Source: Chthoniobacterales bacterium
GTDB taxonomy: Bacteria > Verrucomicrobiota > Verrucomicrobiia > Chthoniobacterales > UBA10450
DNA length: 54,032 bases
Direction of reading: 5' to 3'
Assembly: GCA_013821455.1 (NCBI GenBank)
Contig: JACDGS010000028.1
Coordinates: forward strand, 1-54,032
Shown: piece by piece, positions 5,341 to 7,882 of the stretch
How positions within the stretch are numbered: position 1 is the stretch's first letter
How the letters are laid out: each line of letters starts with the position of its first letter
The notes under the pieces: model-generated
What the model saw: only the letters and a program-made list of their open reading frames with translations
Databases searched by the model: none
What the model was told of the DNA's origin: nothing
Program-made: the position numbers and the translations under genes

Positions 5341-6117
5341 TTATTCAGCGGGCGCCGCCCAGGCCAGCGTCGGTTCGTTAGGCAAACTCGCCTCGCGATA
5401 ACGGCAAATCCCGTCGCAGATCGCGCTGGCGATCTGCTGCCGATAGCCGGTCGTCGTCAGTTTCGCGACATCCGCTGGGTTGGTGATAAAGCCGCCCTCT
5501 ACCAAAGCCGATGGATGTCGCACTTGGGCGATGACATAGAACCGCTCCGACTTGATTCCGCGATTCAACGCCTGCGTCCTTTCGACCAGCGCGGCTTGGA
5601 GAAAACGCGCGAGACTTTCACTCTGGGCGAAAAGCGGTTTTGATTCGCGGGGTTGCAGGAACGAAAACCAACCGAAAATCCCAGGGCTCGTCGCGTTTTG
5701 TCGCGCAGCAAAGTATGTCTCCACGCCCGATGCGGCCGCGCGTTCGCCGTCGTTAAAATGAATGCTGACGAAGAGCGAATTCTTCTCGTGGTTCGCGACC
5801 TCAGCGCGTTGCGCGAGCGAGAGATAACGATCCGAATCGCGCGTCAGCCTCGTGGTATAACCGGCCGCGCGCAGAAGCATCTCGGCGCGCCGCGCGACAT
5901 CGAGCGTGAGATCTTTTTCCAGGACTGCGCCGCACATCGCGCCGGAATCCTGTCCACCGTGACCGGGATCGAGCACAATCACCGGCGCTGCTTCGTTCCC
6001 GCGCGCGATGGGACGTGATTTTGCTACCGGCTGCAGCGGCGGCGTGACCAGCAGGAAGCAGACAAACGATATCGCCAGCAGGATCAGGCCGAACCAGGAG
6101 AGAATGGGCCGGAACAT
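5341..6117 (-). CDS. N-acetylmuramoyl-L-alanine amidase (Amidase_3)
   Basis: The 258-residue zinc amidase cleaves the bond between N-acetylmuramic acid and the stem peptide. An N-terminal membrane anchor or signal (MFRPILSWFGLILLAISFVCFLLV) precedes the domain. Motifs in order: VIVLDPGHGGQDSGA (first zinc His), VLEKDLTLDVARRAEML (zinc Glu), SLFVSIHFNDG (second zinc His) and ALVEGGFITNPADV (catalytic Glu). The gene follows the proteasome alpha gene by 15 bases on the same strand and precedes a PG-binding protein by 9, so they are likely cotranscribed. Confidence 0.92.
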   Translation of the reverse strand: MFRPILSWFGLILLAISFVCFLLVTPPLQPVAKSRPIARGNEAAPVIVLDPGHGGQDSGAMCGAVLEKDLTLDVARRAEMLLRAAGYTTRLTRDSDRYLSLAQRAEVANHEKNSLFVSIHFNDGERAAASGVETYFAARQNATSPGIFGWFSFLQPRESKPLFAQSESLARFLQAALVERTQALNRGIKSERFYVIAQVRHPSALVEGGFITNPADVAKLTTTGYRQQIASAICDGICRYREASLPNEPTLAWAAPAE

Positions 6118-6132
6118 TAAGTCCTTTACTCG

Positions 6133-6900
6133 TTAGGCCGAAAGCGTCGCCAACTCGTTAGCGGTCAGCGCACGATAACGAATTGCGGTCGTCACGTTAC
6201 GCTCGAGCACGCAAGCTTCCAACGTCGCGCCGCGTAGCTTTTCCACCCGGAAATCAAGCAGCGCCGGATGCGACGGCAGGTCGCTGGCCGCGTCCTCGGC
6301 GATCGGCATCGCGCCCACGCTCCAAGCATCGAGCGCGACCTTCATCGCGCCGTGCAATGTTGCCTTCGGATCATGATCGCGCCGGAGCAGTTCTTCCATC
6401 GCTTCCGTGGCGCGCGTCGTCCCGCTGATGGCGCAAAAGCCGGGACTCGTTAGGCCAGCCTCGGCTGCGATCGCGCCGTCATATTCGACCCGCAGGAAAA
6501 GATCGGCTTCTGGCTCCGGTCCGACTTCCGCGAAAATCATCCGCGCCAGATAAGGCGCGCCGTAAACCTGCTCGAAGGCCGTCTTCAGCAGCGGGCTGAG
6601 CGAATAGAAAGCCAGCCGCCGCAAAGACACGTCAGCCGCCGAACGCGTGAAACCCTCCGTGCTCGCGAGCTCGATCGCCGCCATGCGCAAGCGCTCGATA
6701 TCGCCCGGATGCCCAATCGCGCCCAAGGCGATTCGGTCGTAAATCTCGAACAGCTTTTGCCGCGCATGTCCAACCGTCACCAGCAGAATGCCGTCGCGAT
6801 AGTTCAGCGCCGCAATGGGACTTCCCGGCGCCAGTTGCGTCTCGATATACTCGCGGCGATTCGCGATCGCCTCGACCCAGCGATAAGGCTCTTCAATCAT
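6133..6900 (-). CDS. prcA: 20S proteasome alpha-type subunit
   Basis: This 255-residue protein resembles bacterial proteasome alpha (PrcA) subunits: MIEEPYRWVEAIANRREYIETQLAPGSP at the N-terminus, then GILLVTVGHARQKLFEIYDRIALGAIGHPGDIERLR, which matches the alpha-subunit strand-turn-helix, and AAIELASTEGFTRS. It has no N-terminal processing threonine, as expected of the gating ring. Its start codon overlaps the stop of the beta gene by four bases (ATGA), so the two are translationally coupled. The identification depends strongly on the beta neighbour; alone the sequence is divergent. Confidence 0.82.
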   Translation of the reverse strand: MIEEPYRWVEAIANRREYIETQLAPGSPIAALNYRDGILLVTVGHARQKLFEIYDRIALGAIGHPGDIERLRMAAIELASTEGFTRSAADVSLRRLAFYSLSPLLKTAFEQVYGAPYLARMIFAEVGPEPEADLFLRVEYDGAIAAEAGLTSPGFCAISGTTRATEAMEELLRRDHDPKATLHGAMKVALDAWSVGAMPIAEDAASDLPSHPALLDFRVEKLRGATLEACVLERNVTTAIRYRALTANELATLSA

Positions 6901-7709
6901 GCGACCGTGCTCTTGAAACGCGCCGCAATTTCCGCTTCCGGCAACGTCCTGATTCCATCACGGGAAATGATCTTGATGATCGGAAATATTTTCGCCGCCC
7001 GATCGACGCCGCCCGTCGCGGTATCAGATTCGGCCGCGGTATCGAGCGCGCGCAAAGCAAGCGTGACTGCGTCTTCTTCACGCAATTTCGGAAGCTTCTT
7101 CTTCCCCCAGTGATTTTCGTAAAACAGAACCCCGCGTACCGCTGGCGATCCGGAGCCGGTAGCGGCGTATTCCGCCACCTCGAAATTCGCGCCCATCGCG
7201 TCGTAAAAGTAAAGGCGTGCCTGTCCGTCGCCCGCAAAATCGTAGGTCGCAAAAATGGGCACGACCACGCCGACTCCCTGAAGGACGAACCCGAAATTAT
7301 CGCGCAAGAGTTTTGAAAGCGCGCGCACTTTGCCGTCCACACTCATCTCTTGCAGTTGGGTGCGACGAAAAAATTGCAACGAATGTTCGAGCACGCGTGC
7401 CATCTCCCACGCGGTCGCGGGCACACCTGCGATCGCCATAATGGAATGGCGATCGATCTCGAGAACCTTGTCCGCGCGATCGTAAACCACCGTATTACCC
7501 GCGGTCGCGCGCCGATCGCCGGCCACGAGCACGCCGCCACTGAATTTGAAGGCAAGGATCGTGGTCGCGTGCGTTTGCATCAGAGCAGGGGCATCCGGCG
7601 AGGCCACCATGGGTCCTATACGACCTATAGGTCCTATGGGACCAATAAGACCATGCCTTCGCAAGAGCGCCGGGAAATCCGCCGCCGCGCCTAACGAGTC
7701 GCTCGTCAC
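6897..7709 (-). CDS. prcB: 20S proteasome beta-type subunit
   Basis: This is the proteolytic ring subunit of a bacterial 20S proteasome. The mature N-terminus is expected at Thr49 (HATTILAFKFSGG). Counting from it, Asp17 (AGDRRATAGN) and Lys33 (DRADKVLEI) are in the canonical catalytic positions, and SGSPAVRG and SDTATGGVD match the later conserved blocks. A 48-residue propeptide precedes Thr1 and contains a GPI-type repeat (see 7611-7653). The frame begins with GTG at 7709, overlapping the UBact TGA (GTGA). An ATG at Met34 is an alternative start that would remove the repeat. Confidence 0.92.
   Translation of the reverse strand: MTSDSLGAAADFPALLRRHGLIGPIGPIGRIGPMVASPDAPALMQTHATTILAFKFSGGVLVAGDRRATAGNTVVYDRADKVLEIDRHSIMAIAGVPATAWEMARVLEHSLQFFRRTQLQEMSVDGKVRALSKLLRDNFGFVLQGVGVVVPIFATYDFAGDGQARLYFYDAMGANFEVAEYAATGSGSPAVRGVLFYENHWGKKKLPKLREEDAVTLALRALDTAAESDTATGGVDRAAKIFPIIKIISRDGIRTLPEAEIAARFKSTVA
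7611..7653 (-). repeat. Nine-base repeat GG(A/T)CC(C/T)ATA in the prcB propeptide region
   Basis: About five imperfect copies of a nine-base unit (read on the minus strand as GGTCCCATA, GGACCTATA, GGTCGTATA and variants) encode GPIGPIGRIGP just ahead of the mature proteasome beta sequence. The unit is not needed by the fold. It may be a simple repeat that expanded within the propeptide, or 5' untranslated DNA if translation begins at Met34. Confidence 0.7.
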
Positions 7710-7882
7710 TGGCCCGTGCGCTGGCGGTAGCGCTTCGATTGGTTCGGATCCACCTTGCGCATTTTCTTCAGCAGATCGCGCGTGTCCGGCTTCGAAACGT
7801 CAGGCGATTTCGGCCCGCCGCCGTCTCCTGGTTGGGGAGCCCACGGCACTGGCGCCACCGGTTTTTCCGTCCGCTCAGGCAT
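7706..7882 (-). CDS. ubact: Ubiquitin-like protein modifier UBact (Pup-like), 58 aa
   Basis: A 58-codon gene too short for usual gene calling. Translation by hand gives a protein that starts MPERTEKPVAPVPWAPQPGD, has a GGGP linker, the segment SPDVSKPDTRDLLKKMRKVD, and ends PNQSKRYRQRTGQ. The C-terminal R-T-G-Q and the DLLKKMRKVDPNQ..RYRQR block match UBact, the ubiquitin-like modifier of some Gram-negative bacteria that is conjugated through its C-terminal Glu/Gln and paired with a 20S proteasome. A Gln end suggests deamidation before ligation, as for Pup. Its TGA overlaps the GTG start of prcB. The start at 7882 has no obvious Shine-Dalgarno sequence. The ligase and the ring ATPase are not in the window. 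Confidence 0.9.
   Translation of the reverse strand: MPERTEKPVAPVPWAPQPGDGGGPKSPDVSKPDTRDLLKKMRKVDPNQSKRYRQRTGQ

Follow-up and report, generated by a model that had tools for sequence, protein, structure and literature searches.

What question is posed by a proteasome core and a candidate protein tag encoded side by side in a soil bacterium? The window, a 54,032-nucleotide stretch of contig JACDGS010000028.1, holds two 20S proteasome genes and a small gene that a first-pass annotation had read as a Pup-like modifier, calling the three a complete unit. The locus raises the question of whether this trio belongs to a working tagging and degradation pathway and, if it does, how its core particle could be docked and opened by an ATPase. 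The genome that carries the trio comprises 4.3 Mb in 117 contigs and is 97% complete. Its closest prcB loci are found in Chthoniobacterales/Spartobacteria metagenome assemblies, mostly from soil, and the host is a verrucomicrobial soil bacterium that belongs to the Chthoniobacterales.

The UBact, prcB and prcA genes

The smallest gene of the trio (7706..7882, minus strand) encodes UBact, a Pup-like protein modifier of 58 amino acids with the C-terminus RTGQ. This agrees with the first-pass annotation, since both curated models are passed by about 50 bits (PF20513, 79.7 bits against a cut-off of 27.8; NF033388, 84.1 bits against 35). Of 98 related genomes, 69 carry a match to the modifier, whereas 14 control genomes gave no match at all. 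Comparison of the window gene with 69 further non-identical genes that share its length (177 nt) gave 537, 552 and 1828 changes at codon positions 1, 2 and 3, respectively, and the median pN/pS of the 70 distinct genes is 0.18. Against the five nearest relatives, dN is 0.015–0.027 and dS 0.32–0.82 (dN/dS < 0.1). Judging from these substitutions, UBact is under purifying selection; the conservation in relatives on which the earlier reading had been made to depend is thus found, in a frame that is also syntenic. A chance small frame beside ordinary proteasome genes, of the kind that GC-rich DNA often offers, was rejected as vanishingly improbable in view of the HMM scores, in-frame conservation in those 69 of 98 relatives and a dN far below dS.

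Of 106 UBact frames from relatives, all but one close with RTGQ or RTGE (105 of 106). Parsimony on the PrcB tree (83 rows) places 11 Gln/Glu changes at the final residue, eight of them forced by well-supported branches, and the clustering of the two states is hardly above that of shuffled labels. Gln and Glu appear to be interchangeable at this position over evolutionary time, as would be expected if Dop were retained mainly for tag removal. UBact is accompanied by prcB and prcA at the locus and by PafA/Dop in the same genome, and its covalent attachment to substrate lysines is putative.

The prcB gene (6897..7709, minus strand; PF00227, 106.5 bits) encodes a 20S proteasome beta subunit of 270 amino acids, including a 48-residue propeptide. 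The prcB stop contains the ATG of prcA, just as the GTGA at the UBact stop contains the GTG start of prcB, so that both of the overlaps described earlier measure 4 bp. The PrcB score against TIGR03690 is 177.1 bits, below the actinobacterial cut-off of 191.9, and its PDB matches are the Rhodococcus and M. tuberculosis beta subunits. The mature subunit begins at HA/TTILAFKF, with the catalytic Thr1 codon at 7563..7565 (minus strand), placed by the sequence itself and by an alignment of 98 relatives. Thr1, Asp17 and Lys33, which the first-pass annotation had called exact, are so, and are conserved in essentially all of these relatives (Asp17 and Lys33 in 98 of 98–99).

The propeptide (7566..7709, minus strand) contains a DFPALLRRxGL box, conserved in the aligned relatives, and ends at the processing site THA/TTI. 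Judged by its position, the box is probably the counterpart of region II in the propeptides of Actinobacteria (PMC7210456). A 9-bp degenerate GGWCCYATA repeat (7612..7652, minus strand; IGPIGPIGRIGPM; Tandem Repeats Finder period 9/18) lies in frame in a flexible propeptide segment, after the DFPALLRR box and ahead of the cleavage site. In-frame inserts resembling it were found only in loci L042 and L060 and, weakly, L036. The first two belong to another lineage on the PrcB tree, and their repeats are apparently independent of that in the window. Elsewhere in the genome, a repeat of this kind is present at a single further site (C61:78669). A high-copy mobile repeat is unsupported, as a 20-base pattern occurs at two places in the genome and in 3 of 58 genomes. 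An alternative prcB start, at an ATG inside the frame near 7613, would make the repeat intergenic; it was rejected on account of the DFPALLRR box, which lies further upstream and which relatives conserve. Dimerisation of half-proteasomes in Rhodococcus is controlled by the matching flexible region III (PMC7210456); that the window repeat might affect this step is speculation by analogy.

The prcA gene (6133..6900, minus strand) encodes the 20S proteasome alpha subunit (255 amino acids). Its TIGR03691 score of 95.8 bits is below the cut-off of 139, its profile matches M. tuberculosis PrcA with an E-value of 6e-19, and its AlphaFold model (pLDDT 85) matches the M. tuberculosis proteasome in Foldseek (E 8e-18). 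A non-proteasome protein, suggested by a Pfam score of 21.8 against a threshold of 22.4, was rejected on the basis of profile, fold and synteny. Residues 1–23 (6832..6900, minus strand; MIEEPYRWVEAIANRREYIETQL) form the gate helix H0, with a helix at residues 5–23 in the model. H0 is the most conserved part of PrcA, with a mean column identity of 0.95 over residues 1–20 compared with 0.40–0.50 near the C-terminus.

The order BamA-Skp-DUF3108 / PG-binding-amidase-prcA-prcB-UBact / LysM-GYF-ABC is kept across relatives. All three genes of the trio stand together in 73 of 80 loci, and in 64 of the 80 the amidase is beside them; both counts are lower bounds, because loci cut by contig ends were scored as lacking the genes. 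In locus L102, from a Chthoniobacter-like assembly, prcB and prcA are about 2 kb apart; elsewhere they overlap. The amidase, an Amidase_3 N-acetylmuramoyl-L-alanine amidase (5341..6117, minus strand; PF01520, 170.7 bits), follows prcA by 15 bp. Given this spacing and its retention, it may share a transcript with the proteasome genes; it is a neighbour of the trio and at most a candidate member of the system. A promoter scan upstream of UBact gave no sigma-70-like site.

Putative ligase, deamidase and ATPase elsewhere in the genome

The first-pass annotation had proposed searching the genome for a PafA/Dop-like ligase and an Mpa/ARC-like ATPase, and both searches returned matches, so that the lack of a ligase homologue, named there as a refuting condition, did not arise. 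Exactly two PF03136 proteins were found (559.7 and 420 bits). One, at locus L001, scores 490.7 bits against the Dop model TIGR03688 (cut-off 492.3), has Dop as its best PDB match and contains both the Dop loop DPHRDARGF and the catalytic motifs NGARFYNDHAHPEY; by these features it is identified as Dop. The other, at locus L002, is without the full Dop loop (57 versus 87 residues between motifs) and by sequence is assigned as the PafA paralogue. Its TIGR03686 score of 324.5 bits is far below the actinobacterial PafA cut-off of 551.3 and almost equals its own Dop score, so its predicted ligase activity is argued from paralogy and from the absence of the Dop loop. The Dop/PafA tree has two clades, and actinobacterial PafA groups with L002 at weak support (78/51). 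The PafA proteins of UBact systems (L002, 1495–2928; L103; L215) carry a short DLHYRDYEEPPGNGGF segment at the site of the Dop loop, where actinobacterial PafA has nothing, and their catalytic strand motif is shortened to YLDMGHIEY from YLDVGSHPEY. At locus L192 (G062:C23) of a relative, pafA is split into two overlapping frames, by either a frameshift or an assembly error.

The ATPase, of the pup_AAA proteasomal type, is encoded at locus L003. It scores about 470.7 bits against TIGR03689 (cut-off 504.75), and its alignment to M. tuberculosis Mpa spans the coiled-coil, OB, AAA and C-terminal domains. PrcB, PrcA, PafA and the ATPase all fall under the respective cut-offs of TIGR03690, TIGR03691, TIGR03686 and TIGR03689, as homologues outside the actinobacterial equivalog range.

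The description of the locus as a complete unit therefore holds for the tag and the 20S core and fails for the system, whose genes are scattered over four contigs carrying the trio, Dop, PafA and the ATPase. Methylacidiphilum-like genomes of the same class have a single six-gene operon (ATPase-dop-UBact-prcB-prcA-pafA). Most Chthoniobacterales keep the ATPase gene with dop and have UBact-prcB-prcA on its own; within the genus to which the window belongs, the ATPase gene is parted from dop as well, each lying well inside a contig. Chthoniobacter flavus and two genomes from a different family retain pafA close to the trio. Pup and PafA homologues were neighbours in all lineages known by 2008 (Iyer et al., PMC2588565), to which the window genome is an exception because its pafA is on another contig.

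Dispersed as they are, the genes occur together. Among the 98 relatives, UBact and PafA/Dop are both present in 68, UBact alone in one, PafA/Dop alone in six and neither in 23. For PafA/Dop and the ATPase, the corresponding numbers are 71 with both, three with PafA/Dop alone, none with the ATPase alone and 24 with neither. All three components are found in 65 genomes and none in 23. Genome G081 (96% complete) has a divergent trio on locus L176 (G081:C66; UBact at 6337–6690, minus strand) and gave no match to PafA, Dop or the ATPase in the same genome searches. The trio may thus persist without the rest, as a decaying system, or both other loci may be missing from the assembly.

The trio very probably provides the tag and the core particle of a functional UBact (Pup-type) proteasome pathway. 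The six genes of this pathway, their conservation and co-occurrence, and their catalytic residues are recorded here at the sequence level; the reactions and their order would be those of the Pup system, in which the chemistry of Dop and PafA, unfolding, and cleavage by Thr1 are established. Deamidation by Dop would turn the C-terminal Gln of UBact into Glu, and PafA would ligate the gamma-carboxylate of this Glu onto lysines of the substrate. The ATPase, as a hexamer of the Mpa/ARC type, would then capture UBact with its coiled coils before unfolding the substrate and feeding it into a PrcA7-PrcB7-PrcB7-PrcA7 barrel for cleavage by Thr1. Tag removal would also fall to Dop.

The ATPase tail and the alpha pocket

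Published bacterial, archaeal and eukaryotic 20S caps dock by C-terminal HbYX-type tails, that of Mpa being GQYL (PMC9599533, PMC12288473, PMC11475706). The 50 intact distinct ATPase sequences of the tail set, all from Verrucomicrobiota, end instead in [VI][VI]-COOH after a variable linker (VI in 38, VV in seven, II in four and IV in one). Tyrosine occupies position -2 in 0 of 51 tails and is absent from the last 10 residues, and position -3 is mostly small (G/A/S). Two actinobacterial control ATPases end in TGQYL. The last two positions have the lowest entropy of the last 25 (0.76 and 0.60 bits, compared with about 3 at -5 to -13), and the C-terminal dipeptide is therefore under selection. 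One odd tail (L143, ...THTQHLT) was set aside, as its frame starts at the locus edge and its last residues depart from the family; it is the sole such tail, and decay or an assembly effect was rejected as the source of the tyrosine-less ending. No ATPases from other phyla were found in viral_contigs.

The alpha ring is altered as well. The alpha-subunit partners of the Mpa tail in the M. tuberculosis complex are Arg26 or Glu119 for the tyrosine, Lys52 for the carboxylate, and Asp144 and Ser146 for the glycine (PMC9599533). By profile alignment, Arg26, Glu119, Lys52, Asp144 and Ser146 correspond to positions 25, 118, 49, 141 and 143 of the window PrcA. Across 87 distinct PrcA cores, Lys49, Asp141 and Leu118 are each present in all 87; Arg is never found at position 25, which is mostly Pro, Ser, Thr, Ala or Gly. 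The PrcA of Nonomuraea, an actinobacterial control, has Arg and Glu at the Arg26 and Glu119 sites. The ATPase tyrosine and both of its alpha contacts are thus absent together and the carboxylate anchor is kept, since the tails lack tyrosine, Arg26 and Glu119 are replaced and Lys49 is invariant.

We favour, with modest confidence, docking and gating of the verrucomicrobial UBact proteasome that dispenses with tyrosine: with Arg26 and Glu119 lost and the lysine kept, the V/I-V/I carboxylate of the ATPase would pair with PrcA Lys49 and the V/I side chains would enter the hydrophobic pocket. The gate could then open through occupancy of this pocket, through ATPase contacts on the near-invariant H0, or both. 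In M. tuberculosis, the Mpa beta-grasp hairpin touches H0 (PMC9599533), and in an engineered archaeal barrel pocket occupancy can suffice for gating (PMC12352868), which by analogy might extend to the UBact proteasome.

The missing tyrosine could also be read as a decayed docking motif, in a 20S core acting mainly without ATPase or tag and with UBact as a signalling mark. Retention of tag and core in G081, where PafA, Dop and the ATPase gave no match, fits such an arrangement, as do the Pup ligases of Plesiocystis and Rhodopirellula that are unlinked to a proteasome (PMC2588565). A decayed tail would drift, however, and here the last two residues are the least variable; the ATPase accompanies PafA/Dop with few exceptions, and pocket residues Lys49 and Asp141 do not vary, all of which makes this arrangement improbable. 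It is similarly hard to credit that another cap with a canonical HbYX motif, a Bpa/PafE-like ring or a Cdc48-like ATPase, is the main partner in place of the Mpa-like ATPase. Bpa and Cpa act as alternative caps in Actinobacteria (PMC4254994, PMC6017811). The BPA family search gave no match in the genome of the window, which carries the less weight as it drew none from the controls either; the two other ATPase matches in the genome are without an HbYX ending, and the equivalents of Arg26 and Glu119 are lost from the pocket for any tail bearing tyrosine.

Relation to known proteasome systems

UBact/Pup with a proteasome is already known from Verrucomicrobia, and the trio is a further member. Pup orthologues of Verrucomicrobia and Methylacidiphilum were described by Iyer et al. 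in 2008 (PMC2588565), the UBact-proteasome of Gram-negative phyla by Lehmann et al. in 2017 (as cited in PMC12751074), and a Gram-negative proteasome cluster includes verrucomicrobia (PMC5666114). Within the open literature searched, the tyrosine-less ATPase tail combined with an altered alpha pocket appears to be new: no report of such a tail was found in the HbYX literature on Verrucomicrobia and Nitrospira, most subscription papers, including Lehmann 2017, falling outside the search.

How HbYX tails divide binding from gate opening is an active question, and in an archaeal 20S proteasome 'YX' binding has been separated from 'Hb' gating (PMC12352868). An ATPase without the tyrosine, paired with an alpha ring that has lost the contacts and kept the lysine, offers a natural evolutionary test of the HbYX model, with few genes to reconstitute. 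At the level of the phylum, Dop/PafA were reported in 2020 as very sporadic in Verrucomicrobia (PMC7947786); in contrast, several Chthoniobacterales families are found here to share the UBact system as a conserved trait in a syntenic setting, and other families lack it.

The system of the window shares with the Gram-negative UBact system its modifier family (NF033388 equivalog), the same six components and a C-terminal G[EQ], and differs in the dispersal of its genes over four contigs. It also differs from that system, as presented in the papers searched (Lehmann 2017 being outside them), in an ATPase that ends in [VI][VI] without HbYX. With the M. tuberculosis Pup-proteasome it has in common the tag-prcB-prcA order, Thr1/Asp17/Lys33, the Dop loop, the Mpa-like domain order, the equivalents of alpha Lys52 and Asp144, and a long beta propeptide with a central box. 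Unlike actinobacterial Pup, its modifier is UBact, with RTGQ instead of GGQ/GGE; unlike the actinobacterial system, it has alpha Arg26 and Glu119 replaced, an ATPase without GQYL, and alpha and beta subunits below the equivalog cut-offs. The ATPase resembles HbYX caps in its AAA ring (as in PAN, Rpt and Mpa), in a conserved tail after a variable linker and in the conserved alpha lysine that faces it, whereas it differs from PAN, Rpt2/3/5, Mpa and Bpa in having no tyrosine, with mostly G/A/S at -3 and V/I at -2 and -1.
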